DNA from: Vicinamibacteria bacterium
GTDB taxonomy: Bacteria > Acidobacteriota > Vicinamibacteria > Fen-336
Reading direction: 5' to 3'
DNA: 35,258 bases
Assembly (NCBI GenBank): GCA_023701125.1
Contig: JAMPXO010000048.1
Coordinates: 1-35,258 of the forward strand
Of this stretch, positions 1 through 35,120 are shown piece by piece; positions within the stretch are counted from its first letter, which is position 1, and the number at the start of each line of letters is the position of its first letter. The position numbers and the translations under genes are program-made. The notes under the pieces are model-generated. The model searched no databases. It saw only the letters and a program-made list of their open reading frames with translations, and was not told the DNA's origin.

Positions 1-173
1 CGGGCGGCTCGCGCCAGGCAGAGCCTGACGCTCGGGCCCTCGGGGGCTCCGTCGCGAACGGACGCTCCTCCGCCCCCGAACCCCCGTCGGGCGGCTCGCG
101 CCAGGCAGAGCCTGGCGCTCGGGCCCTCGGGGGCTCCGTCGCGAACGGACGCTCCTCCGCCCCCGAACCCCCG
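1..173. repeat. Two tandem copies of an 87-bp palindromic repeat
   Basis: Copy 1 spans 1-87 and copy 2 spans 88-173. They differ by one base (A at 28 against G at 115). Each copy holds two dyads. The first is GCGCCAGG-cagag-CCTGGCGC, perfect at 98-118 and with one mismatch at 11-31. The second is TCGGGGGC ... GCCCCCGA, at 40-47/72-79 and again at 127-134/159-166. The unit is 29 codons long and is open in the reading frame of the GNAT gene that follows. It therefore behaves as a coding repeat unless that gene starts downstream of it. The left end is cut by the window edge, so more copies could lie upstream. Confidence 0.9.
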
Positions 174-641
174 GGGCTGCCCGCGGGCGTCGTCGTCGAG
201 CGCACCACGAACGATGCGGACTGGGTGCGGCTGGTCGCGGCGGGCTTTGCCGCCGGGGAGCCGCACGTGGGTGGCGGGCCCGAGCACGGTCCCGGCCCGA
301 GCGCCGACGACCTGGCCCCGATCATGGCCTCGTTCGTTCATCCCGACATCGCCCGCTATCTCGCCCGCGTGGATGGCGCTGCGGCCGGTGGCGGTGCGGC
401 GTGGGAGCGCGACCGCGTGCTGGGAGTGTTCGGGACCGCGACCCTGCCCGAGTTTCGACGCCGTGGCGTGCAGGCCGCGATCACCGTGGCCGCGCTGCGC
501 GACGCGTCGCCGGCCGCGGACCTGGCGATCGCCACGACGGCGCCCGGCAGCACGTCGCAGCGCACGTTCGAGCGGCTCGGCTTCCGCGTGCTCTACACCC
601 GCGCGATCTTCGTGCGCGCGCCGCAGGTGACGGCGGCGTGA
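3..641 (+). CDS. GNAT family N-acetyltransferase, C-terminal part (left-truncated)
   Basis: This is the C-terminal part of a GNAT acetyltransferase, which transfers an acetyl group from acetyl-CoA to an amine; the substrate is unknown. The acetyl-CoA-binding signature is visible as LPEFRRRGVQAA, followed by the PGSTSQRTFERLGF segment typical of the last strands of the fold. The frame has no stop from the left edge to the TGA at 639-641. The first roughly 58 codons are two copies of a 29-residue unit (SGGSRQAEP ... SSAPEPP), and recognisable GNAT sequence resumes at about GVVVERTTNDADW. In relatives a variable linker precedes that point, so I infer that the repeat sits in a linker and the true start is off the window. 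An alternative is a GTG start at 225 (138 aa) with the repeat intergenic. The stop overlaps the next gene by four bases. Confidence 0.72.
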   Translation, partial: GGSRQAEPDARALGGSVANGRSSAPEPPSGGSRQAEPGARALGGSVANGRSSAPEPPGLPAGVVVERTTNDADWVRLVAAGFAAGEPHVGGGPEHGPGPSADDLAPIMASFVHPDIARYLARVDGAAAGGGAAWERDRVLGVFGTATLPEFRRRGVQAAITVAALRDASPAADLAIATTAPGSTSQRTFERLGFRVLYTRAIFVRAPQVTAA

Positions 642-1165
642 GCGAGGCGCCCGACCTGACAGCCGTCGAATCGCGGCGGCTGGTGCTGCGCCGGCTGTGC
701 GAGGACGATCACGCCTTCCTGCTCGACCTGCTGAACCAGCCCTCGTTCGTGCGCTTCATCGGCGACCGCGGCGTGCGCACCGTCGAGCAGGCGCGGAAGT
801 ACGTGCGCGACGGGCCGCTGGCGTCGTACGCGCGCCACGGCTTCGGCCTGTTGTGCGTCGAGCTGCGGCGCGGCGGCGCTCCGATCGGCATCTGCGGCCT
901 GCTCAAGCGCGACGTGCTGGACGACCCGGACCTCGGCTTCGCGTTCCTGCCCGACTACTGGGGCAAGGGCTACGCGCAGGAAGCCGCGCAGGCCGTGCTC
1001 GACGCGGCCCGCGACCGGCTGGGCCTGCGCCGGGTGGCGGCCATCACCCAGCCCGACAACGCCGCCTCGATCCGCCTGCTCGAGAAGCTGGGCTTCGTGG
1101 GCCAGGACACGGTCGGCCTCACGGAGGGCGAATCCGAGCTGCGCCTGTTGATGCTCGCCCTCTGA
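638..1165 (+). CDS. GNAT acetyltransferase, RimJ/RimL-like
   Basis: A 175-residue GNAT enzyme of the ribosomal-protein or small-molecule N-acetyltransferase type. It opens with the family's ESRRLVLRRL strand. It has the acetyl-CoA loop as LPDYWGKGYAQEA, then the QPDNAASIRLLEKLGF motif near the C-terminus, all typical of RimJ/RimL/SpeG-like proteins. The chosen start is the GTG at 638, which overlaps the upstream GNAT stop (GTGA), indicating translational coupling. The length fits the family. The substrate cannot be told from sequence. The gene ends 7 bp before the convergent amidase gene, with no room for a separate terminator. Confidence 0.88.
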   Translation: MSEAPDLTAVESRRLVLRRLCEDDHAFLLDLLNQPSFVRFIGDRGVRTVEQARKYVRDGPLASYARHGFGLLCVELRRGGAPIGICGLLKRDVLDDPDLGFAFLPDYWGKGYAQEAAQAVLDAARDRLGLRRVAAITQPDNAASIRLLEKLGFVGQDTVGLTEGESELRLLMLAL

Positions 1166-9743: not shown

Positions 9744-9828
9744 TGCCGGAGGAGGGAATCGAACCCTCATGAGGACAAGCCCCGCGGGATTTTGAGTCCC
9801 GTGCGTCTGCCAGTTCCGCCACTCCGGC
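9744..9828 (-). tRNA. tRNA-Leu (anticodon CAA)
   Basis: An 85-base cloverleaf on the minus strand. The acceptor stem is GCCGGAG/CTCCGGC with discriminator A. The anticodon stem CGGGA/TCCCG encloses the loop CTCAAAA, giving anticodon CAA for UUG codons. The T arm is GAGGG-TTCGATT-CCCTC. A long variable arm confirms the leucine class. The CCA end is not encoded. A TAAACT box (9846-9851 read on the minus strand) lies about 20 bases upstream and could be its -10 element, but no good -35 is seen. There is no sign of an integrated element at the tRNA. Confidence 0.97.
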
Positions 9829-17907: not shown

Positions 17908-19107
17908 TCAGTCCCCGGTCGCTCCGGCGCGAGGGCACTGAACCCCACCGCGGGCCAGCTCCTCGTACAGGTCGGAGTGGCGCGCCACGGCGACGTCCCA
18001 GCCGAACTCGGCCACCGCCCGGCGACGGGCCGTCGCGCCCAGCGCCTGGCGCAGCTCCGCATCACGCGCGAGGCGGACGATCGCCTGCGCCATCGCCGCG
18101 GGCGCGCGGGCGGCCACCAGCAGGCCGCAGGTCGCGTCGCCGAACTGCTCCCGCACGCCGCCGACGTCGGTGGCGACGATCGGAAGCCCGGACGCCATCG
18201 CCTCCAGCACCGCGTTGGGGAAGCCCTCCTCGTGTGACGCCATCAGGAAGAGGTCCGCCGCCGACATCAAGCGTGGCACGTCCGTGCGGGCGCCGAGGAA
18301 ACGGACCTCCGACGCGACGCCCAATTCGGTGGCGAGGCCGCGCAGGGCGGCCTCCTCCGGGCCGGCCCCCGCGAGCACGAGGCGCAGCCCGGGGACCTCG
18401 CGCCGGGTCGCCAGGAACGCGTGCAGCGCGTCGCGGTGGCCCTTGTACGAGATCAGGTTGGCGACCATCAGCACCGCGAGCTCGCCGTCGGCGAGACCGA
18501 GCTCGTGGCGAGTCGCCGCCCGGTCGGCGCGCGACGCGTACTTCGCCAGGTCCACGCCGTTGTGGATCACCCGGAAGCGGCGGGCGACCCCGCGGTCGCG
18601 GGCCACGGCCGCCCTGCGCACGGCCTCCGAGTTGCCGACGATGGCGGCCGTCAGCCGGTGGCCGATGCGCTCGACGGACGAGTAGGGGAAGCGCTGCTCG
18701 ATGCCGAGCCCCAGCGAGCGCACGCCGGAGGCCGTGGCGATGCCGCCCACCTTGGCCGCCGCCAGCGCGGCCAGCGCGTAAGTCGGGAACAGGAAACCGT
18801 GGACGACGTGGGGCCGTTCTTCGCGGAAGCGGACGATCAGGCCGCGCAGCCAGTTGACCCAGGTCCACGGCGAGGGCGTCCCGGGCTGCACGAGCGCCAC
18901 TCGCAACCCCGTGGCGCACACCTCGTCGAACATCGCCCCACGGTGGGTGAGCAGTGCGACCGACACCGCGAAGCGGTCCGGGTCGAGCCGGCGGGCGAGT
19001 TCGACGACCTGGCTCTCGGCGCCGCCGCGGTCCAGCGAGGCCACCACCAGGCAGAGCCGGATGCGCCCGTCCCCGGCGGCCGGGGCGTGGGGCAGGGGCG
19101 TGGTCAA
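17908..19107 (-). CDS. GT4 family glycosyltransferase
   Basis: A 399-residue GT-B retaining glycosyltransferase. The acceptor-domain start is IRLCLVVASLDRGGAESQVVELARRLD, the hallmark opening of GT4 enzymes. HNGVDLAKY precedes the donor domain. The EX7E motif is in EEGFPNAVLEAMASGLPIVATDVGG from about residue 293. It is cytoplasmic or membrane-associated and adds a sugar to a growing glycan. The likely start is a TTG at 19107 whose TTGA overlaps the stop of the asparagine-synthetase-like gene; ATG and GTG alternatives near the N-terminus are absent. The long open frame further upstream is the antisense and out-of-frame shadow of that gene. It is co-transcribed with it. Confidence 0.9.
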   Translation of the reverse strand: MTTPLPHAPAAGDGRIRLCLVVASLDRGGAESQVVELARRLDPDRFAVSVALLTHRGAMFDEVCATGLRVALVQPGTPSPWTWVNWLRGLIVRFREERPHVVHGFLFPTYALAALAAAKVGGIATASGVRSLGLGIEQRFPYSSVERIGHRLTAAIVGNSEAVRRAAVARDRGVARRFRVIHNGVDLAKYASRADRAATRHELGLADGELAVLMVANLISYKGHRDALHAFLATRREVPGLRLVLAGAGPEEAALRGLATELGVASEVRFLGARTDVPRLMSAADLFLMASHEEGFPNAVLEAMASGLPIVATDVGGVREQFGDATCGLLVAARAPAAMAQAIVRLARDAELRQALGATARRRAVAEFGWDVAVARHSDLYEELARGGVQCPRAGATGD

Positions 19108-20957
19108 CTCGGGCCGGCGCCGCGTGCGCGGCCGGCGGCGTCGAGCACCTCGCGGCACCACAGCTCGAGCATCAGCAGCGCCCACAGCCGCGGCCCGTGC
19201 TCCTCGCCGCGCTGGTGGGCGTCGATCAGCGCCTCGATCGCGACCGGGTCGAAGAAGGGACGCTGGCGGGCGCGGGTCGACAGCAGCGTGTCCCGCAGCA
19301 GGTCGCGCAGTTCGCCCCGGAACCAGGGGCCGAGCGGGATCCCGAAGCCCATCTTCTTGCGGTGCAGCAGCGCGTCCGGGACCAGCCCGGCGAGCGCCCG
19401 CTTCAGCACGATCTTGCCGGTGCCGTTGCGCAGCTTGAGGCGCTCCGGCAGGCGGGCCGCGAACTCGATAAGGCGGTGGTCGAGGAACGGGCAGCGCACC
19501 TCGAGGCTGCTCGCCATGCTGGCGATGTCGACCTTGACGAGCAGCGCCTCCGGCAGGTAGCTCATCGTCTCCACGTAGAGCGTCTTGTCGAGGAAGCCGT
19601 CCGCGGCCGCCCGGTCGTACAGCTCGCCCAGGTAGGCGTAGGTGTCGCTGCCAGCGACCGCCGCCTTCATCGCCCCGGAGTAGACGGCCTGCTTCTGCTC
19701 GGGCGTGAAGTAACTCATCATCAGGTAGTAGGGATCGCGGGACGGCTCGGCGGGCGGCGCGGGCCGACCCAGCAGCCGCCCGAGCAGGCCCGACCAGCCG
19801 GACGGCGCCGCCTGCCCCGGGTCGTAGCCGAGGTACTTGTAGCGCTCGTAACCGCCGAACAGCTCGTCGCCGCCGTCGCCGCTCAGGGCCACGGTCACCG
19901 ATTCGGCGGTCATCTTCGCCAGGTAGTAGGTGGGCAGCGCCGAGGAGTCCGCGAACGGCTCGCCGAAGTGGCGCGCGAGCTGCGGCAGGACGTCGGCGGC
20001 CACCGGTCGCACGACCTTCTCCGAGTGATCGCTGCCGACGTGCTGCGCGAGCTGGCGCGAGAAGGGAAGCTCGTCGAAGGCCCCTTCTTCGAAGCCGATC
20101 GAGAAGGTGCGCACCTGGCCGAACTCGCTCATCAGCGCCACGACGCCGCTGGAGTCGACGCCGCCCGAGAGGAACGCGCCGAGCGGCACCTCGCTCATCA
20201 GCCGGCAGCGCACGGCTTCGCGCAGCAGCGCGCGCAACTCGTCCGCAGCGTCCGCTTCGCTGATCTCCCGCTTCGGCCGATAGGACAGGTCCCAGTAGCG
20301 GCTCACCTCGACCTGGCCGTCGCGCAGCCGCAGGAAGTGCCCGGGCGGCACCTTCTTGACCCCGCGGAACGCCGAGCGGGGCGCGGGCACGTACTGGTAG
20401 GTCAGGTACAGGTGGATCGCCTCCAGGTCGGCCTCGGGCGCGAGGTCCGGCGCCTGCAGCAGCGCGCTCGGCTCGCTCGCGAAGCTGAGCCAGGTCTTGC
20501 CCTGGTGGTACCACAGCGGTTTTTTGCCGACCCGGTCGCGAGCCAGGATCAGCTCGCGCCTGCGGACGTCCCAGATCGCGAACGCGAACATCCCGACCAG
20601 CTTGCCGAGGATGTCCGTGCCGTACTGCTCGTAGCCGTGCAGCACGACCTCGGCATCGGACTTCGTGCGGAACACGTGCCCGAGCGCCAGCAGCTCCTCG
20701 CGCAGCTCGAGGTAGTTGTAGATCTCGCCGTTGAGCTCGATCCAGGCCGACTCGTCCTCGTTGGCGATCGGCTGATGGCCGCCCGCGACGTCGATGATGG
20801 ACAGTCGCCGGAACGCGAAGCCGCAGGGGCCGAGCTGGAGGACGGACCCCTCGTCGGGCCCGCGGTGGAGCTGGGCGTCGCCCATCCGCCCCAGGACCCC
20901 CGGATCGGGATGGGGTCCCCTGGCGTCGAGCGCCACCTGTCCGGCAATTCCACACAT
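19104..20957 (-). CDS. asnB: Glutamine-dependent asparagine synthetase-like amidotransferase (first copy)
   Basis: A 617-residue AsnB-family protein. Met-Cys2 begins the class II glutaminase domain (MCGIAGQVAL, HRGPDEGSV, then NGEIYNYLELREEL). The ATP-pyrophosphatase loop SGGVDSS is at 264-270, and the C-terminus keeps DGGDELFGGYERY and EVRCPFLDHRLIEFA. The start is the ATG at 20957 because Cys2 must become N-terminal; a longer open frame (to 21023) would destroy it. GAGGAC precedes the start. AsnB homologues inside O-antigen loci (for example WbpS of Pseudomonas aeruginosa) amidate uronic acids. With the WbpD-like enzyme nearby, a sugar uronamide role is more likely here than asparagine synthesis, but both are possible. 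Confidence 0.95.
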   Translation of the reverse strand: MCGIAGQVALDARGPHPDPGVLGRMGDAQLHRGPDEGSVLQLGPCGFAFRRLSIIDVAGGHQPIANEDESAWIELNGEIYNYLELREELLALGHVFRTKSDAEVVLHGYEQYGTDILGKLVGMFAFAIWDVRRRELILARDRVGKKPLWYHQGKTWLSFASEPSALLQAPDLAPEADLEAIHLYLTYQYVPAPRSAFRGVKKVPPGHFLRLRDGQVEVSRYWDLSYRPKREISEADAADELRALLREAVRCRLMSEVPLGAFLSGGVDSSGVVALMSEFGQVRTFSIGFEEGAFDELPFSRQLAQHVGSDHSEKVVRPVAADVLPQLARHFGEPFADSSALPTYYLAKMTAESVTVALSGDGGDELFGGYERYKYLGYDPGQAAPSGWSGLLGRLLGRPAPPAEPSRDPYYLMMSYFTPEQKQAVYSGAMKAAVAGSDTYAYLGELYDRAAADGFLDKTLYVETMSYLPEALLVKVDIASMASSLEVRCPFLDHRLIEFAARLPERLKLRNGTGKIVLKRALAGLVPDALLHRKKMGFGIPLGPWFRGELRDLLRDTLLSTRARQRPFFDPVAIEALIDAHQRGEEHGPRLWALLMLELWCREVLDAAGRARGAGPS

Positions 20958-20985
20958 CGGAGGTCCTCGGCCCGCACAAGCGCAG

Positions 20986-21009
20986 GGCCTGCGGATTCTC
21001 AGGCAGGCC
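20986..21009. other. Stem-loop in the divergent intergenic region
   Basis: GGCCTGC and GCAGGCC form a perfect 7-bp stem around a 10-base loop (ggattctcag). It lies 29 bases upstream of the first asnB start, within the 139-bp gap that also serves the divergent 1080-residue membrane protein. It could be a leader hairpin or an operator dyad. Confidence 0.35.
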
Positions 21010-21032
21010 TCGGGCGGGAGCAAGCCGGAGGT

Positions 21033-21096: not shown

Positions 21097-24000
21097 ATGA
21101 CTGATCGGGCGCAGAAGGTCTATCGCTGGGCGCTGGGTGGGCTGGCCCTTCTGGCGCTCGCCGTCGGGCAGACGGGGGTCCGCCGGTCGTTCGAGTTGCA
21201 GCCCTCCACGTTCCAGCCGGTCAAGGACTTGGCGTTCTCCGCCCCGCTCTCCCGGCCGGCCGTCTCGGCGGCCTCCGACTCCAACGACGATCCACAGCGT
21301 TCGTCGCTGATCCTGTTCGAGGATGGCCGGCCGCTCGGCCCGGCGCACTCGCTCCACGAGTCGATCTGGACGAAGGGGGGCGGGGCGTATTCCCACTGGG
21401 GCGACAGCGTCATCTTCTCGACCTCGGACAACTCCGACCCGCGCACCAACGGCCGGCGCTACGAAATCTCCGCGCGCGTGCCGCGCTCGGCTCTCTTCCG
21501 CGGTCTCGCCGTGGCGGCCGCCAGCGCCGCCCTGCTCGCCCTGCTCTGGCCCATGCGGGTCCGCGTGCGTGCCGCCTTGAGAGCGGGACTCGAGCCCGCG
21601 GGGTGGCTGCGGCGCGCTGGCCGGCTGGCGCTGGTCGCCGTGGCGCTCGCCCTGGCCCCGGACATCTCCACTTCCCCCGTCGCCGGCCTGACGGCCGTCG
21701 CCGCGATTGCCGGCCTCGCCGCCTACGCCGTGCGCGGGGCGTGGCGTTCCGAAGCCGCGCAGCCGCTGCCCGGCGCGTGGCCGTGGGTCTGTGCGGGCCT
21801 CTCCTTCATCGCGCCCGCGTACCTCCTGCAGTACCTGTCCACGCCGGTCGCCCCCGATTCCTTCAGCTACTGGATGCCCTGGGACCTGCTGGGCGTGCGC
21901 CTGATGACGACGCCCCCGATGCGGCCGCCGTTGCTGCCGGTGATCCATGCCCTGTTGGACGGGATCGGGGCGGAAGGGGGCGTGCTGATCGCCGGGCAGG
22001 TGATCCTGCGCGCCGTCGGGGTCCTGCTGGTCACGCGCGCGCTCGCGCGCCTGGACGCGTGGGTCGGCCTCGTGGGCGGACTGCTGCTGGCGCTGGACCC
22101 CGTGAGCGCGGGCCAGTCCCTGCAGTACCTGAGCGAGAGCGTCCACGCGTCGCTGTGGCTCGTCGTCCTGAGCCTGCTGCTGGAGATCCGCGGGCCGGCG
22201 AGGCCGCTGCCGCTCCTCTTCGGGGTCGTCCTCGGCATCGCGGGCATGGTGCGCACGATCGGGGCGCCGATCGCCGCCGCCAGCCTGGCCGCCGCTTCCG
22301 TCCTGGCGCGCTCGCGGACCTGGGTGGCGCGGACCGCGCTCGGCGTGCTGCTCGTGGTCGCGCCGGCCGCTGGCCTCAATTGGCTGCAGACGAGCCACGC
22401 CTGGGGCTCGCAGGGCCTGTACCTGGCTTTCCCGCTCTTCATCCAGAAGCAGTTCCTGGCGTCGAACGGCCCGGCCTCCCAGCGCATCCACCTCGACCTG
22501 GCCAGGTGCGGCCTGGAGGGTCTCGAGCAGCAGGTCGTGCTGAACAACTCGAACGAGAACATCCTGACCCGGTTCAATCCGTGCCTGGTCCGCGCCGCCG
22601 GCGGGGATCTCGGCCGCCTGGACCGCGACTACTCGCGGGCGTACCGCGAGGCCTGGCTCGCCCGCCCCTTCAGCTTCGCGTGGGCGACCGTGAAGGAGTC
22701 GCTGCTCTTCTTCGCCGAGCCGTTGTCGGCGGCCCTCTGGGCGGACCAGTCGTTCGCGACCCTGACCGACGTGGACGAGTTCTGCCAGCCGCGCGCGAAC
22801 GAGGCCACGCGGGGTTTCCGCGCCTTCGTGTGCCCGCTTCCTTTCCCGGCCCCGGACCCCGACCTCTGGATCTTCCGCATCTCGCGGCTGACCCGCCACG
22901 TCTATCAGCCGTACCTGCACTTCACGGAGGCGCCCTGGTCGGCGATGCCGGCGCAGGCCGAAGCCGTCGGCCTCGCCGCGCTGGCCTGGATGGCCTGGCT
23001 CGCGTTCGTCGCGCGGCCGTCGCTGCGCCCCGCGGTGCTCCTGACCTCCCTGCTGCTCGTCCTGCACGCCGTGGGCACCGCCCTGGGACAGGCGTCGATG
23101 CTGCGCTACACCGCGCCGATGGCGCCGCTGTTCCTGATCCTGACTGCCGTTTCCGTGGCGACCGTCCTCGGCAGCCTCGGCTGCCGGGTGCCGGCGGCCC
23201 TGACGCCCGCCGCTGGCGCGCCGCGGGACCGCGGCCGCCGGGTCGTGGCGATCCTGGGTCCCGCCCTGCTCGCGGCGATGGCGACGGTGGTGTCGGTCGT
23301 GACGATCGAGGTCGGCCTGCGGCTCGTGGAGCGGATGGGCACCGCGCCCCCGCCTCCGCCGACGCTGCGCCGCGACCCGCGCCTCGGCTGGAACAGCATC
23401 CCGAGCGCGACGCCGCTGGGGGAGGGGCCGGACCAGATCCTGTTCGTCGGCGACAGCTTCACCCAGTCCTCGAGTTGGCCGCGCCAGGCGCTCGACCGGG
23501 TTCGCGCCGCCGGCCGGCCCACGTTCGGCGGCTGGAACCTCGGGGTGGCCGGGTACGGCACCACCCAGGAGTGGCTCAAGACCCGCGACTGGATCAGCCA
23601 GTCGGCGGTGCGGCCGCGCGCCCTCGTGCTGCTCGTCTACCCGTGGAACGACCTGCGCGACAACCTCGCCACGCCCTCGATCTACTACAACCACCAGACC
23701 CGGCAGCGGCCCTACTGGGTCAGGAACGGCGGGGACTGGACCCTCTCCACGCCGTTCTTCTGGCCCGACTTCCTCTACAACGCGAAGCTCACGGAACGCC
23801 TCGTCCGGTTGTACGACGCGCGCGACGCTCGACGCCACCAGGCGCGGAGGGTGGACGGCGCGGCGCTCTCGGGGGGCGACCTCCGCCTCGGCTACGCGGA
23901 CCCCCGCTCCTGGGACCCGCTCTACCGGACCCAGGCCCAGGATCTCCCGTACGTGAGCGAAGCGTGGCTGAGCACCGAGCGGACGCTGGTCGAGCTCCGG

Positions 24001-24339
24001 GACCTCGCGCGAGCGGCCGGGGCGCCGCTGGTCGTGCTCGCCCTCGACAACGCGTTCACGGTGGACCAGGACGTGCTCGACCAGTGGGTGCCGCAGCGGG
24101 AGGGGTTCGACCCCTTGCTGCCGCTGGCCCGGATGGACGCGCTGACCCGCAAGCTGGGGATCGACTTCACCGACCTCCAGCCGCGGCTGCTGGCGCGCGC
24201 GCGGGCCGTGGGCGGCAAGATCTACAACGGGCCGCCCGGCAACCTGTCGGGGCACCTCGAGCCGCACGGCGACGAAGAAGTGGCGCGCGCCGCGGCCGAG
24301 GCCGTCCTGCGCGCGCTGTCGCGACCGGGAGGCGCCTGA
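21097..24339 (+). CDS. Membrane protein: 48-residue module, GT-C-like core, SGNH domain
   Basis: A 1080-residue protein with three parts. After one membrane helix (about 9-27) comes a module (core 75-122) shared with two other proteins of this locus (EDG, LGP, H..H, SHWG, SDNSDP, RRY). About ten membrane helices follow (132-745). A loop APDSFSYW with Asp254 and the segment RPPLLPVIHALLD resemble GT-C/GT39-type active-site loops. The C-terminal 300 residues are an SGNH-like domain: nucleophile Ser787 in FVGDSFTQS, and His1053 in LSGHLEPHGDEEVA, but the usual Asp of the final block is replaced. This implies a sugar transfer plus acyl transfer or removal function on the periplasmic side (inference). 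Four bases of poor Shine-Dalgarno (GGGGAAATG) precede the ATG. The stop is two bases before the next gene. Confidence 0.88.
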   Translation: MTDRAQKVYRWALGGLALLALAVGQTGVRRSFELQPSTFQPVKDLAFSAPLSRPAVSAASDSNDDPQRSSLILFEDGRPLGPAHSLHESIWTKGGGAYSHWGDSVIFSTSDNSDPRTNGRRYEISARVPRSALFRGLAVAAASAALLALLWPMRVRVRAALRAGLEPAGWLRRAGRLALVAVALALAPDISTSPVAGLTAVAAIAGLAAYAVRGAWRSEAAQPLPGAWPWVCAGLSFIAPAYLLQYLSTPVAPDSFSYWMPWDLLGVRLMTTPPMRPPLLPVIHALLDGIGAEGGVLIAGQVILRAVGVLLVTRALARLDAWVGLVGGLLLALDPVSAGQSLQYLSESVHASLWLVVLSLLLEIRGPARPLPLLFGVVLGIAGMVRTIGAPIAAASLAAASVLARSRTWVARTALGVLLVVAPAAGLNWLQTSHAWGSQGLYLAFPLFIQKQFLASNGPASQRIHLDLARCGLEGLEQQVVLNNSNENILTRFNPCLVRAAGGDLGRLDRDYSRAYREAWLARPFSFAWATVKESLLFFAEPLSAALWADQSFATLTDVDEFCQPRANEATRGFRAFVCPLPFPAPDPDLWIFRISRLTRHVYQPYLHFTEAPWSAMPAQAEAVGLAALAWMAWLAFVARPSLRPAVLLTSLLLVLHAVGTALGQASMLRYTAPMAPLFLILTAVSVATVLGSLGCRVPAALTPAAGAPRDRGRRVVAILGPALLAAMATVVSVVTIEVGLRLVERMGTAPPPPPTLRRDPRLGWNSIPSATPLGEGPDQILFVGDSFTQSSSWPRQALDRVRAAGRPTFGGWNLGVAGYGTTQEWLKTRDWISQSAVRPRALVLLVYPWNDLRDNLATPSIYYNHQTRQRPYWVRNGGDWTLSTPFFWPDFLYNAKLTERLVRLYDARDARRHQARRVDGAALSGGDLRLGYADPRSWDPLYRTQAQDLPYVSEAWLSTERTLVELRDLARAAGAPLVVLALDNAFTVDQDVLDQWVPQREGFDPLLPLARMDALTRKLGIDFTDLQPRLLARARAVGGKIYNGPPGNLSGHLEPHGDEEVARAAAEAVLRALSRPGGA

Positions 24340-24341
24340 CA

Positions 24342-26249
24342 ATGTGCGGCATCGTCGGCGTCGTCTTCGCGGATCCGCTGCGGCCGCCTTCGCCCGCGAC
24401 CGAGGCGGCGCTGGCGCGCGCGGTCGACGTGATGTCCCACCGCGGCCCCGACGGGGAGGGCCGGGTGTCCGCGACCGGCATGGCGTTCGGGCACCGTCGG
24501 CTGTCGATCATCGACCTCGCCAGCGGCGGCCAGCCCATGCGCTACCAGCAGGGCCGGTACGTGATCACGTTCAACGGCGAGATCTACAACTACCGCCAGT
24601 TGCGCGACACCCTGCTGGGCCTCGGTCACGAGTTCGCGACGGCCAGCGACACCGAGGTGGTGCTGGCCGCGTACGCGCAGTGGGGCGAGGCGATGCCGGC
24701 GCGGCTGCGCGGCATCTTCGCGTTCGCGATCTGGGACTCGGTGGACCGCCGCGCTTTCCTGGCGAGGGATCACCTGGGCGTCAAGCCGCTGCTGTACCTC
24801 GAGCGCGCGGGCGAGTCGCTGGCCTTCGGCTCGGACCTGAAGAGCCTGCTCGTGCTCGGTGGCGATCGCCTCGGCATCGACCCGGAAGCGCTCTCCGACT
24901 ACCTGGCGGCCGGCTATCCGCAGTCGAACCGCACGATCGTGCGCGAGGTGCGCCGCCTCGAGCCGGCGCAGTTCCTGGTCTACGAGCGGGGGCGAGCGCG
25001 GATCGGCTCCTACTGGGACCTGGCGGAGTGCTACCGCGCGCCCAGGATCCAGGGCCGCCTGCCCGAACTGGCGCTCGCCTTCGAGGAGAAGTTCGCCGAC
25101 AGCGTGCGCGCGCAGATGGTCAGCGACGTGCCGGTCGGCGCGTTCCTCAGCGGGGGCCTGGACTCGTCCTCGGTGGTCGCCCAGATGCGCCGGCGGCAGC
25201 CGGGCGAGTTGTTCACGTTCAGCATGGGCTTCGCCGAGAAGACGTTCAGCGAGCTCGACCACGCGCGGGAAGTCGCCCATCACTTCGGCACTCGCCACGT
25301 CGAAGACGTCGCCAGCCCCGATCCCGTCGACTGGGCGGACTTCGCGTGGCGGATCGGCGAGCCGCTCGGCGACACGTCGCTGATCCCCACCTTCCTGGTC
25401 TCGGGGCTGGCTCGGCAGCACGTCAAGGTCGTGCTCAGCGGGGACGGCGCGGACGAGTGCCTCGCCGGCTACGACACGTACGTCGCCGACAAGCTCCATG
25501 GCGCCTACCGGTGGGTCCCCTCGCTGCTCCATCGCCACCTGATCACGCCGCTGGCCGCGCTGCTGCCACACTCGGGCCAGAAGGTCGGGCTCGATTACAA
25601 GATCCGGCAGTTCGTGCGGTTCGGCCAGGCCGCATTCCCCAGGGCCCACTTCGGATGGCGGGAACTGTTCGACGCGGAGGAGCGGCTCCAGCTCGGGACG
25701 GAGCCCGCGCACGCGCCGTGGGCGCACGTGGAGGCGACCATGGGCGAGCTGGCGGGCGCCTCGCGCCTCGACCAGACGCTGTACTCCGACACCAAGACGT
25801 GGCTTGCCAACGACATCCTGACCAAGGTGGACAGGGCGACGATGGCCGTGGGCCTCGAGGCGCGCGTGCCGTTCCTGGACCCGGATCTCGTGGAGTTCTG
25901 CGCGCGGCTGCCGGTGGAGGCCAAGATGAAGGGCTTTTCGAGGAAACGAGTGCTGAGAACGACAGCGACGAAAGACCTGCCGAAGTCGATCCTGGAGCGA
26001 CCGAAGAGCGGCTTCAACGCGCCGGTCTCGCGCTGGCTGCGAGGCTCGCTCGGAGGCACGCTCGAGGACCTCGTCGGCCGCACGAAGCTGATCGACGGCC
26101 GCTCGCCGCGGCTCCGGCAGTTGATCCAGGAGCACGGTTCGGGCCTGCGGGACCACGGCTTCAAGCTGTGGTCGCTGACCGCCCTGCTGCTGTGGGAGCG
26201 CGAGGTCTGGGATCGCACGGCCGGGACCACGGCCGTGGGAGGAGCATGA
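24342..26249 (+). CDS. asnB: Glutamine-dependent asparagine synthetase-like amidotransferase (second copy)
   Basis: A 635-residue AsnB-family protein. Cys2 starts the glutaminase domain (MCGIVGVVFAD, MSHRGPDGEG, then NGEIYNYRQLRDTL). The pyrophosphatase loop SGGLDSS is at 270-276, followed by SGDGADECLAGYDTY. The C-terminal part has ANDILTKVDRATMAVGLEARVPFLDP. It belongs to a different branch from the first copy (different N-terminal spacing, DGADECLAG against DGGDELFGG), so it is not a recent duplicate. It begins two bases after the 1080-residue protein and its stop overlaps the next start (ATGA). In this context it probably amidates a uronic acid or another carboxyl of a glycan precursor rather than making free asparagine (inference). 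Confidence 0.95.
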   Translation: MCGIVGVVFADPLRPPSPATEAALARAVDVMSHRGPDGEGRVSATGMAFGHRRLSIIDLASGGQPMRYQQGRYVITFNGEIYNYRQLRDTLLGLGHEFATASDTEVVLAAYAQWGEAMPARLRGIFAFAIWDSVDRRAFLARDHLGVKPLLYLERAGESLAFGSDLKSLLVLGGDRLGIDPEALSDYLAAGYPQSNRTIVREVRRLEPAQFLVYERGRARIGSYWDLAECYRAPRIQGRLPELALAFEEKFADSVRAQMVSDVPVGAFLSGGLDSSSVVAQMRRRQPGELFTFSMGFAEKTFSELDHAREVAHHFGTRHVEDVASPDPVDWADFAWRIGEPLGDTSLIPTFLVSGLARQHVKVVLSGDGADECLAGYDTYVADKLHGAYRWVPSLLHRHLITPLAALLPHSGQKVGLDYKIRQFVRFGQAAFPRAHFGWRELFDAEERLQLGTEPAHAPWAHVEATMGELAGASRLDQTLYSDTKTWLANDILTKVDRATMAVGLEARVPFLDPDLVEFCARLPVEAKMKGFSRKRVLRTTATKDLPKSILERPKSGFNAPVSRWLRGSLGGTLEDLVGRTKLIDGRSPRLRQLIQEHGSGLRDHGFKLWSLTALLLWEREVWDRTAGTTAVGGA

Positions 26250-30522: not shown

Positions 30523-33201
30523 TCAGCGCCCGGCGCTGTCGACGCGCGAGAGCGACGCGGCCTGGAAGAAGGGCTCCCGATCGGCCCGGCCCGTGCTGAA
30601 GGTTCCACAAACGGCGGCCCGGCCAGTGGGGCCGGGCTCGGTGCCGGGGGGCAGGACGAGCCACACGGCGAGCCCCGTCGACAGGTCGACCGTCGCCGTC
30701 AGCACGGCCCCGGGCCGTAGCCGCGCGGTGTCCGAGTTGAGGAAGTAGCCAAACGTCGGGCGCAGGTCGCGCCTGCGGACGCGGGTGGCCGGAGCCGTCG
30801 CGCTCGCGTCGTCCGTGATCGCCAGGTACGCGCCTTCCGGGATGTCGACCAGCAGCGCCCGCTCCCCCGCGGGGCAGCCGGGCAGCGGGGGCTTCGGGCC
30901 TCGCCCCGACCACATCAGGCCGATCGGGCCGAGCATCACGACGGCCGTCAGCCCCAGCGCCAGGTGTTGCGCCAGCGGGCCCGGGGCCGCGGACGGCACG
31001 GCCGCCTCGGGAGCGGCGGCCGACCGCGGACCGAAACGCCGGACCAGTTCCGCGAGGGCGGCGAACGGCACGGCGACGCCGGTCGCGGTCAACAACGCGA
31101 CCAGCGGCATCGTCGCGGCGTAGACGCGGAGGCCGGCATCTCCGGGCGGCAGGAACGGAATCGACAGCAGGTGCCCGGCGGCGCCGAACAGCAGCACGCC
31201 GCTCATGGGCTTTCGGAAGCGCACGGCGCAGGCGATCAGCCCCAGAGCCGCCAGCGCGTAACACGTGGCCTGGAACTCGGGCGAGCGCACGCCGTCGACC
31301 ACGAACGCGAAGGCGTGGTAGCGCGATCCGGTCAGGCCGAGGTACTCCTCCAACGCCCGGGCGCCGCCTTCGATCAGGCCCATGGGCCGCGCCTGGAACG
31401 CCTGCCACGCCAGCGCGTAGATCTCTCCGCCTTCCCGGGCCTCGGGGTGGTCCACCAACACCTGGTTCCAGCCCTTGCCGCCGACGACCAGCCCGTAGAT
31501 CACGTACGAGAAGTTGGAGAACGCCTGTTGTTCGTTGGTCGGCCTGGCGAGGACCTTGACGAGGGCGAGGCTCAGCAGCGAGGCGACGAGCACCGACGCG
31601 AGCGCGCCGGCACCGATCCGCAGGCGAGCGGGACGGTGCCGGAACTCCCAGACGGCCGCAGCGACGAGCGCCGGCAGCACGAAGAAGGCGCCGGCTCGCG
31701 CCATCAGGGCCAGGGTCAGGAGCCCGAGGCCGACGCAGTAGCCGCGGGGGTCGTCCGTGCGCACGCCGCGCGCGATCGCCGCCAAAGCCAGGGCGCCCAT
31801 CGCCAGCCCGAGGTTCTCGGTCAGCGTGGTGCCGAGGCCACCGTCGACCCGGTAGAACAGGAAGAGCAGCACGAGCGCGGCGGCCCCTGCGATCGGGCCG
31901 AGACTGGCCCGCCACTCGCGGGCGAGCAGGAACGCCGCGACGGCGTTGAGCAGCACCATCAGAGCGATGCTCAGTTGCAGGTTGCGGTCGGTGGCCGCCA
32001 GCAGGGTCGAGAGCAGGCCGACGAACAACGGTCGCCGCGACGACCAGCCGAGTGGCTCGCCCGACAGCAGGCGCAGGGCGTCGGCGTAGTAACCGCCGGC
32101 GTCCGAGGCCGGGAGCAGGCCGCCCACGGCGCTCGAGTGATTGACGACGTCCTGCCAGAGGGCCCGGAGCGGGAGCGCGAACAGGACCACGGCGATGGCC
32201 AGCGCGCCCACGGTGCCGAGCCAGCTCCTCCGGTACAGGAGCAGCGCCACCGGAACGCCCGCCCAGGTCAGGACCGGCAGCGTCAGGTGGTACGAGTCCG
32301 CCAGCAGCGACGGCGGCAACTCCACGAGCAGGGCCGCGGCGAACAGCGCGGGCACGACGGCCAGCGCGACGATCCGCAGCCCCCTGCCGCTCGGGCCCGG
32401 GGTCTCGAACGGCGCGTGGACCTGGTCCAGTGCCCGCGCGAGACGGGCGGAGCCGGAGGCGACGAGGTCGACCACGACCTGGCCCGCGAGCGCAAGGCCG
32501 GGCTGCGAGAGCGCTCGTCCGCCCCGCACCGCCAGCACCCCGGAGGTGAGAAGGGCGACGCTCCAGACGCCCAACTCGAAGACGGGGTCGACCCCGGTCC
32601 ACTCCAGGCCCCACGTCGATCCCGCCGTGAAGGCGCAGGCGCCACCGCCGATGGCCGTCATCAGGGCCGTGGCCCGGCGCGGCAGGCTCGGGTCGGGGAG
32701 GAGCCACGGCCGCCACCGCCGGCTCGCGAGCAGGACGCAGGCGATCCATGCCCAGAGCACCGACATCGGCAGCGTGGCCGCCGTCTCGACGAGGTAGCGC
32801 CGCCCGTTGGCGCGTGGGTCGGTCCGGTCGGAGGACGAGAAATAGAGGACCTCGCCCCAGTGCGAGAAGCGCCCGCGGCCGTTTGCGCGAAGGCCCTCGT
32901 GCTCGGTGTGGGCCGGGCCGAGTGGCACGCCGTCCTCCAGCACGGAGGCCGCCGAGTGTCTCGGCCGCTCCGGGCTGTCCCCCTCTGCCGCGAGCAGGGG
33001 CAGCAGCCGCGAGGGCCGCATGGGCGCGACGAAACCCTCGCCCGCGTCGCGTCGAATCGACTCCGGGGCGAGGGGCTGCCGCTCGGGCACGCCCCACCCG
33101 AGGCCGCACACGATGGGGACCAGGCTGAACGCCAGCAACCGCGCCGCGCGCAGCACCCGTTGGCGCGCCTCGGCGGGCGCCAGCGGGGCGGCCGCGGTCA
33201 T
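30523..33201 (-). CDS. Membrane protein with the 48-residue module and GT-C-like core
   Basis: An 892-residue protein. One membrane helix (about 20-37) is followed by the shared module (core 89-136: EDG, LGP, H..H, SHWG, SSDRTDP, NGRRY). About twelve membrane helices run from 145 to 770. The loop LPASDAGGYYADALR, then SSRRPLFVGLLSTLL, is the counterpart of APDSFSYW and RPPLLPVIHALL in the 1080-residue protein, so the two are distant paralogues. The C-terminal 120 residues (DIPEGAYLAITDDASATA onward) form a beta-rich soluble tail in place of the SGNH domain. The start ATG at 33201 overlaps the upstream methyltransferase stop (ATGA). Probably a polyprenyl-phosphate-sugar-dependent transferase (inference). 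Confidence 0.85.
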   Translation of the reverse strand: MTAAAPLAPAEARQRVLRAARLLAFSLVPIVCGLGWGVPERQPLAPESIRRDAGEGFVAPMRPSRLLPLLAAEGDSPERPRHSAASVLEDGVPLGPAHTEHEGLRANGRGRFSHWGEVLYFSSSDRTDPRANGRRYLVETAATLPMSVLWAWIACVLLASRRWRPWLLPDPSLPRRATALMTAIGGGACAFTAGSTWGLEWTGVDPVFELGVWSVALLTSGVLAVRGGRALSQPGLALAGQVVVDLVASGSARLARALDQVHAPFETPGPSGRGLRIVALAVVPALFAAALLVELPPSLLADSYHLTLPVLTWAGVPVALLLYRRSWLGTVGALAIAVVLFALPLRALWQDVVNHSSAVGGLLPASDAGGYYADALRLLSGEPLGWSSRRPLFVGLLSTLLAATDRNLQLSIALMVLLNAVAAFLLAREWRASLGPIAGAAALVLLFLFYRVDGGLGTTLTENLGLAMGALALAAIARGVRTDDPRGYCVGLGLLTLALMARAGAFFVLPALVAAAVWEFRHRPARLRIGAGALASVLVASLLSLALVKVLARPTNEQQAFSNFSYVIYGLVVGGKGWNQVLVDHPEAREGGEIYALAWQAFQARPMGLIEGGARALEEYLGLTGSRYHAFAFVVDGVRSPEFQATCYALAALGLIACAVRFRKPMSGVLLFGAAGHLLSIPFLPPGDAGLRVYAATMPLVALLTATGVAVPFAALAELVRRFGPRSAAAPEAAVPSAAPGPLAQHLALGLTAVVMLGPIGLMWSGRGPKPPLPGCPAGERALLVDIPEGAYLAITDDASATAPATRVRRRDLRPTFGYFLNSDTARLRPGAVLTATVDLSTGLAVWLVLPPGTEPGPTGRAAVCGTFSTGRADREPFFQAASLSRVDSAGR

Positions 33202-33995
33202 CCGCGCGGGCTCGCCGTCGCCGCGGTCGGGACGCGCCGCAGCACGATCGTCGCGAACATCGCGAGCTGCCCCATCAGCGGCTGGAGCGCGCGCTCCAGC
33301 CCGCGCCAGGCCCCGTAGCTCCAGCCGGGCATCAGGCTGCGCAGCGAGACGCCGCCCGAGACCAGGTAGCAAAACGGCATGCCGGGGCGGATCACCTCGA
33401 TCCGCCACGCCGGGAACTCGCGCTCGAAGGTCGCGCGGTCGCGCTCGAACACGATCCAGGGCAGGGCGCCGTTGGCCCCCGACAGCGGCCCGGTGGTGGC
33501 GAACTCCCAGCGCGGGGCCTCCGGCAGGAACGGCTCGTGGTGGAAGCTGCCGTAGACGAAGCGCGACCAGGGCGTCACCCACGGCTCGACCAGCACCATC
33601 GCGCCGTCCTCGCGCACCGCTTCCGTCGCTTCCGCGAAGAAGCGGCGGACGTCCGGGACGTGGTGCAGCACGTCGGTCATCACGATCGCCCGCAGGCTGC
33701 GGGGAGCGAATGGCAGGTGGCAGCCGTCCAGCACCACGCTCATGTCGGGACAGTGGAAGATCTCGGAGCGGATCACGTCCGGCACGTGCTCGTGCAGGAA
33801 GCCGGCCCCGGAGCCGAGTTCCAGCACCCGCCCCGGCCCGGGCGGCAGGTGACGCGCGACGTCGGAGTACCACTCCTCGTAGATCCGCCGCAGGAACGGC
33901 TTGGTGGCGATCACCTGGCGCCGCACGTGAGTCGTGGCAGGAGAGTCGAGCGGCAGACCCCGGGTGAGCGGATTTTCGAGCAGTCGTTTGATCAT
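33198..33995 (-). CDS. Class I SAM-dependent methyltransferase
   Basis: A 265-residue methyltransferase. GRVLELGSGAGFLHEH (55-70) is motif I. AIVMTDVLHHVPDVRRFFAEA is the Methyltransf_11-type middle motif, and VREDGAMVLVEPW follows. The C-terminal half contains FHHEPFLPEAPRWEFATTGPLSGANGALPWIVF, a pattern of an uncharacterised methyltransferase branch I have seen near polysaccharide genes. It starts at the ATG at 33995, with only a weak Shine-Dalgarno, and overlaps the next gene by ATGA. The 63-bp region to the divergent module-bearing gene must contain both promoters. The substrate is unknown. Confidence 0.9.
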   Translation of the reverse strand: MIKRLLENPLTRGLPLDSPATTHVRRQVIATKPFLRRIYEEWYSDVARHLPPGPGRVLELGSGAGFLHEHVPDVIRSEIFHCPDMSVVLDGCHLPFAPRSLRAIVMTDVLHHVPDVRRFFAEATEAVREDGAMVLVEPWVTPWSRFVYGSFHHEPFLPEAPRWEFATTGPLSGANGALPWIVFERDRATFEREFPAWRIEVIRPGMPFCYLVSGGVSLRSLMPGWSYGAWRGLERALQPLMGQLAMFATIVLRRVPTAATASPRG

Positions 33996-34058: not shown

Positions 34059-35120
34059 TTGGGTTTCGGACGACCGGTCGCGTTTCCCCTCCTCCGAGAG
34101 CACGCGCGCCGGCCGTGGTCCGGGCACGCGATCTGCCTCGGCCGGGCGGACGTCCACTTCGGGCACGAGGCGCTGCTGAAGATGGCGGGGCTGACCGGCG
34201 CCCGCCTCGACCCGGGCGTGGCGCCGACGCCGTCGCACCGTGACGACCTGGCGGCCCGCGGCTGCATCTCGGACCGCAGCCTGTTCGCGGCGCTCGGCTT
34301 CGCCAGGCTGTCGACCCTCGACCTCAGCAACTTCGAAGGCGCGGAGATCCAGTTCGACCTCAACTCGGCGGAGTTGCCGGCGTCGCTCCAACAGGTCTGC
34401 GACGCGGTCTTCGACCACGGCACGATGGAGCACGTCTTCCACGTGCCCCACTTCTTCGCCAACGTGCACGGGATGCTGAAGGTCGGCGGCCGGGTCGTGC
34501 ACTGCTCGCCCACCGCGAACTGGATCGACCACGGCTTCTACATGTTCTCGCCCACGTTGTTCCTCGACTTCTACGAGGCCAACGGCTGGCGGGTCCACGC
34601 GCTCGAGATCGTGCGCTTCGACCCGCAGAAGCAGGACGCCGAGACGCCCTTCTTCGCCCGCTACGAGCCGGGCGTGCGCATCCCGCCGCCGTCCGAGCAC
34701 GAGTCCTTCCTGACGGTGTGCATCGCCGAGAAGCTGGAGCACAGCACCGCCGGGGTCGTGCCCCAGCAGGGCTATTACCGTCGCACCCCGGGCTGGCAGG
34801 AGGAGGCGGAACCCGAGGGCCTGACGACGCTGGCGCTGCGGCCACCGTTCCAGCCCGCGGGCGGCAACTGCTGGCTGGCCGACCTGAGCCGCCTCGCCGC
34901 GGACCGCGGCGACTCGATGACCGAGCCGCAGCGCTCGCCGCTGCGCGTGCTGGAGGACGGCACGCGACTGGGACCGGGGCACAGCGTCCACGACACGATC
35001 CGCACCACCGGCCGCGGCCGCTACAGCCACTGGGGCCAGACGCTCTACTTCTCGACGAGCGACAACTCCGACCCCAACTCGAACCGCCGCCGCTACGAGG
35101 TGAAGGTCCGCCCGGCCTGA
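34059..35120 (+). CDS. Methyltransferase-like protein with C-terminal 48-residue module
   Basis: A 353-residue protein. Residues 1-285 are a methyltransferase-like fold. The usual glycine-rich loop is replaced by HAICLGRADVHFG, but LDLSNFEGAEIQFDLNSA, CDAVFDHGTMEHVFHV and LKVGGRVVHCSPT fit the strands and motif of an atypical class I branch with HGFYMFSPTLFLDFYEANGW. After an internal Met287, residues 299-346 are the shared module (EDG, LGP, H..H, SHWG, SDNSDP, RRY), and the protein ends seven residues later. The start is a TTG with GGAGGG three bases upstream; an in-frame TAG at 34032 rules out anything longer. This copy has no signal peptide or membrane helix, unlike the other two, so the module here should be cytoplasmic. 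Confidence 0.85.
   Translation: MGFGRPVAFPLLREHARRPWSGHAICLGRADVHFGHEALLKMAGLTGARLDPGVAPTPSHRDDLAARGCISDRSLFAALGFARLSTLDLSNFEGAEIQFDLNSAELPASLQQVCDAVFDHGTMEHVFHVPHFFANVHGMLKVGGRVVHCSPTANWIDHGFYMFSPTLFLDFYEANGWRVHALEIVRFDPQKQDAETPFFARYEPGVRIPPPSEHESFLTVCIAEKLEHSTAGVVPQQGYYRRTPGWQEEAEPEGLTTLALRPPFQPAGGNCWLADLSRLAADRGDSMTEPQRSPLRVLEDGTRLGPGHSVHDTIRTTGRGRYSHWGQTLYFSTSDNSDPNSNRRRYEVKVRPA

Follow-up and report, generated by a model that had tools for sequence, protein, structure and literature searches.

A dispersed palindromic element, probably inserted in frame in many genes, in a genome of the Vicinamibacteria

At the very start of the 35,258-nt stretch of Vicinamibacteria DNA analysed here (the window, contig C194 in a genome assembly of 5.41 Mb and 254 contigs), a GNAT acetyltransferase gene is read without interruption out of a tandem palindromic repeat, raising the question of whether such a repeat can form part of a coding sequence and, if so, how it came to lie there. 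The explanation that I favor, at a probability of roughly 0.8, is that the repeat belongs to a genus-specific, non-autonomous, interspersed palindromic element that inserted at many sites and whose frame-preserving copies were retained in genes.

The repeat array and the GNAT gene

Two tandem units occupy positions 1-86 and 88-173 at a spacing of 87, with one difference in 86 (99% identical), just where the first-pass annotation had placed two near-identical 87-bp units. They hold two copies of an 84-nt core termed subfamily A (GGGCGGCT...ACCCCC, tandem unit of 87), one at 2..85 (+), recognized by repeat comparison, and one at 89..172 (+), recognized by repeat comparison and a covariance model, and between them lies a GTC trinucleotide (86..88, +) of the type GWC, assigned from the sequence and from flank statistics. 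The frame from 3 to 641 (+) has no internal stop in the ORF reading and is indeed open through both copies into the C-terminal part of the GNAT gene, which is recognized from the ORF, Pfam, homology and a contig join described below: its end resembles GNAT (PF00583, E 7e-4, slightly under the Pfam cut-off), and native GNAT sequence (GLPAGVVVERT...) follows the array at 173..638 (+) by homology to orthologs in two congeners, G001 and G002. An AlphaFold2 model of the window fragment, with no alignment supplied, was uninformative (mean pLDDT 35).

Since the window is a contig, the assembly breaks off within both the array and the gene. The missing half is found on contig C183, where a gene on the minus strand (MSNRPVVLHADLTLARR...) runs for 121 codons and then enters the repeat in the same frame. 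The end of C183 and the start of the window share an exact overlap of 114 nt, across which the unit at 2..85 matches the second C183 unit exactly, and when the two are joined there the GNAT gene has 362 codons and three units, with a stop only at its terminus. With the two GNAT halves minus the array as query, each congener returned one uninterrupted gene, 75-76% identical (the site in G001 being defined by protein match), preceded in both by the C183 neighbour and followed by the window's second GNAT gene (638..1165, +), which thereby serves as a synteny marker for the join. The genome is a metagenome-assembled genome (MAG), and the join is based on overlap, homology and synteny; since four other pairs among the contig ends compared share 149 nt and one further pair shares 122 nt, 114 nt differs from the assembler's usual overlap length and the number of units is provisional. 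Given the C183 half, the shared frame, the overlap, the synteny and the uninterrupted congener genes, the GNAT array sits within one open frame, and it would have three units provided that the contigs truly meet at this overlap. Extension to the left has thus located on C183 the N-terminal part of the gene together with one or more additional units, and the converse possibility, namely a stop codon further upstream or a GNAT gene starting at 225, either of which would leave the repeat purely intergenic, is contradicted by the C183 half and congener synteny.

Elsewhere in the window, a tRNA-Leu (CAA) at 9744-9828 (-) is the sole Rfam 15 match at the gathering score in a search of the window only, the element itself matching no curated RNA family there. 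As read from their translations, asparagine-synthetase-like ORFs lie at 19104-21023 (-) and 24239-26249 (+) amid glycosyltransferase- and methyltransferase-like genes, and three proteins (21097-24339, +; 30523-33873, -; 34059-35120, +) share by eye a motif of ~50 residues, DG..LGP.H..H......G.G.YSHWG....FS.SD..DP..N.RRY; Pfam gave a match in none of these three, and the motif is possibly a small uncharacterised domain.

A dispersed element with two hairpins

Beyond the window, the element comprises subfamily A and a subfamily B (GGGTTCC...ACCCCC, core mostly 81 or 82 nt, tandem unit 84-85), and folding predicts two hairpins in both alike. The earlier proposal of two hairpins per unit is borne out by folding z scores of about -2.2 to -3.3 and by paired changes over 35 aligned copies, in which standard pairs make up 98.4% of paired cells, five pairs changed on both sides, and the covariation score was unmatched by any shuffled or slid version of the alignment. 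The ends show a weak GGGTT/AACCC complementarity, by eye only, and no clear terminal inverted repeats. Searching the whole genome for further copies of the 87-bp unit with the covariance model yielded at least 150, far beyond chance; in 1.68 Mb sampled as stretches, 200 copies fell into 153 loci, 116 of them with a single copy and 37 with two to five, and extrapolation from 12 copies in 262 kb (every seventh contig, picked irrespective of the repeat) suggests a genome total of about 250. Partial copies covering only model positions of about 2-53, the first-hairpin side, were seen at L025:6462, L036:9371, L120:11426, L131:5543 and others, and may represent a shorter related element; when the hit list was inspected for pairs of partial copies (first- or second-hairpin) bounding a larger autonomous element, none stood out.

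A search of relatives gave clear matches to the element in the two congeners only (27 and 45 model hits), with two weak DNA matches of 23-36 nt in other relatives, and an exact core pattern across GTDB genomes, in a search that may omit records very near the window's genome, was found only in the MAGs ACD2 and ACD1 (Acidobacteria/Vicinamibacteria). By sequence comparison the element thus appears specific to one Vicinamibacteria genus among these relatives. The congener ACD2 has in-frame copies in two genes, one resembling kinases and the other lipases; in the former (L065:2275-5064, protein-kinase-like), a subfamily A copy lies in frame between the DFG motif and GTAAY, the activation-loop region.

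Could the GNAT array simply be a linker expanded locally by slippage or unequal recombination, with no mobile element involved? The head-to-tail units of equal length and 99% identity are what this process would leave, and the uniform orientation within every cluster (no mixed orientation among the 153 loci) is as tandem duplication predicts; however, the unit is single at 116 of the 153 loci, whose surroundings are unrelated, A and B copies stand side by side in the arrays at L030:4337 and L031:8425, and the same sites are empty in congeners, which makes this account improbable. The first-pass annotation had offered slippage or recombination in a linker as one origin of the repeat, and this part of its proposal fails for the dispersed copies, yet local tandem duplication may contribute to arrays, and the GNAT array may have grown from one unit to three in this manner.

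The position of copies relative to genes bears on the favored reading, that of an inserted, dispersed element. Genes were called by a custom script, not an established gene finder, using a hexamer model for which this genome, after masking of the repeat, was the training set. Of 121 full-length loci clear of stretch ends, 39 lie inside predicted genes, 43 overlap the end of a gene or adjoin it and 39 are intergenic, so that the palindromic element occurs outside genes as well as in frame within unrelated ones. Given that 94% of the sequence is called coding, genes are strongly depleted in copies, and copies are rare between divergent genes (7/81 loci) and frequent between convergent ones; the depletion and the divergent rarity are as expected if most insertions in genes and promoters are lost. 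At 37 of the 39 in-gene loci the gene's own frame is the best coding frame on either side, and among classified in-gene copies 20 are read in sense and 15 in antisense, in several frames, with subfamily A using one frame per strand. An open frame by itself is weak evidence, because most frames of the element lack stop codons and the genome has a high GC content. The view of a dispersed element whose insertion into coding sequence is tolerated draws support from copy number, congeners that lack the element, 39 further in-frame loci and synteny over the contig gap.

An alternative about as improbable as local expansion is that the element is of the REP/REPIN type, moved by a RAYT (Y1 transposase). 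Many-copy short palindromes, mostly between convergent or co-directional genes and rare between divergent ones, are typical of REPs (PMC3733652), and intragenic REPs of the GTAG and CGTC superfamilies, for example in uvrA of Opitutus terrae, are in frame and encode 20-30 residues (PMC3733652), features that the present element resembles. In contrast to REPs, which are 20-40 bp single hairpins found mostly as head-head dimers, the GTAG type being linked to tyrosine transposases (PMC3733652), the present core has 81/84 nt with two different hairpins and forms head-to-tail arrays, with no head-head pairs among the 153 loci; and the Y1/RAYT domain (PF01797) gave no match in this ~95% complete genome, whereas 5 of 14 control genomes were positive.

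Carrier genes and codon-sized inserts

If in-gene copies of the favored inserted element were retained only where they preserve the frame, their lengths should be whole codons, and cores divisible by three make up 25 of 30 single copies inside coding sequences versus 9 of 26 between them (p=3e-4), a contrast that is partly by construction since a frame-breaking copy would be classed outside genes. In 82 of 107 clusters the core is directly preceded by GTC, GAC or ATC, and an identical triplet flanks 23 of the 107, with 13.6 expected; where the right-hand triplet is GAC, GAC also stands at the left in 8/9 (p=2e-5), GTC pairs show no excess over chance (p=0.20), and a left ATC is hardly ever matched. 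This suggests a 3-nt target repeat of the type GWC, a duplication that would not be universal given the chance-level GTC matches and the nearly unmatched ATC, and a core of 81 or 84 nt plus 3 nt gives a whole number of codons.

An element-free relative in G001 or G002 could be aligned across the site in 26 of the 40 carrier genes, one of them GNAT, in a comparison that did not query every gene; identity was mostly 64-88% (a few at 45-55%), in the same frame on both sides. Size differences were taken at the protein level, since DNA alignments had scattered gaps, and the commonest net gain is exactly 28 residues, seen in 9 of the 19 single copies of subfamily B and in one unclassified copy, with 23-35 in the others. 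When HisF is compared with HisF-LUCA, the two align to residue 137, 28 extra residues follow, and the alignment then resumes there; DTD is likewise split by its insert, a solved structure aligning on both sides in HisF and DTD alike, and Pfam domains continue across the insert in HisF, DTD, MoeA, an AMP-binding enzyme and a glycosyltransferase. A search of the genome for a second copy of HisF, DTD, TrpD or MoeA found none, and for RecQ a 32% paralog is present. HisF, TrpD and the window acetyltransferase therefore appear to carry extra loops of 28-29 residues, or multiples thereof, encoded by the repeat; the inserts are presumably translated, and their effect on the proteins is probably near-neutral. 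The genes hisF and trpD lie near each other on contig C239 (L094:9838-10707 and L094:13334-14443), with one insert antisense and the other sense, both in frame.

It is very unlikely that the element is instead removed before use, by RNA excision, translational bypass or an intein-like step, leaving normal proteins: strong hairpins and conserved enzymes hit with no second copy found would suit such removal, but the element is far shorter than known introns and inteins, has the negative Rfam result in the window noted above, is read within genes in both orientations, and would need neither frame-preserving length nor stop-free frames if it were removed. Still less probable is that the carriers are decaying pseudogenes with accidentally open frames, which the stop-free element and GC-rich genome would make cheap, for coding signal and identity to relatives persist on both sides in the same frame, and for HisF, TrpD, DTD and MoeA the genome search gave no second copy.

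Under the favored reading of a genus-specific inserted element, spread presumably by transposition, an insertion would usually add a core and a repeated GWC, that is 84 or 87 nt or 28 or 29 codons, and with stops nearly absent from most frames, readthrough of an in-gene copy would give a hydrophilic loop. Frame-preserving copies at tolerant places would then be retained by purifying selection and others removed; most surviving copies lie between genes or near gene ends. A further copy could join an old one head to tail to give arrays such as that in GNAT.

Relation to known elements

The closest comparison is with the Rickettsia palindromic elements (RPE), which integrate in frame into unrelated genes (PMC10969869), one carrier enzyme, Gmk, being translated and active (PMC2229807), and which measure about 105-150 bp in Rickettsia according to Ogata et al. 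2000 and 2002 as relayed by later papers (PMC10969869, PMC2229807). Like an RPE, the present element is an interspersed palindrome found between genes and in frame in unrelated conserved genes, where it adds some tens of residues; unlike RPE, it has a core of 81/84 nt with two distinct hairpins and 84/87-nt increments, occurs in both orientations, several frames and head-to-tail arrays, and resides in a GC-rich acidobacterium with a 5.4-Mb genome. The original comparison with Rickettsia thus holds for the way of working, the likeness to RPE being one of described features. Bacterial MITEs such as Correia/NEMIS, ERIC and QMITE of Coxiella also make in-frame fusions (PMC2229807, PMC5896051), and the element resembles these in being small, non-autonomous and occasionally fused in frame with an apparent short target repeat, but differs in its lack of clear terminal inverted repeats and in that no parent insertion sequence was found. 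Searches of open-access literature turned up no description of this element, which is most aptly classed as a new family among the protein-coding palindromic elements.

As to what moves it, DDE_Tnp_1 gave no match in the genome with controls positive, and a single rve domain match lies at a contig edge; MAG assembly easily loses repeats and insertion sequences. A tentative and rather doubtful extension would be that the element is still mobile in a whole-codon quantum (81/84 nt and the 3 nt of a duplicated GWC) and is driven by a system that is neither Y1 nor DDE_Tnp_1 and that routinely writes loops of 28-29 residues into conserved enzymes.

It is in Rickettsia that protein-coding palindromes are best known, and there a reduced genome under relaxed selection offers a natural explanation. 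Some forty in-frame cases in a 5.4-Mb acidobacterium would place the same process in a large genome, with carriers that include apparent sole copies of HisF, TrpD, DTD and MoeA, and since the element-free congeners provide clean before and after pairs, both the acceptance of such loops by proteins and the mover of the element become directly testable.
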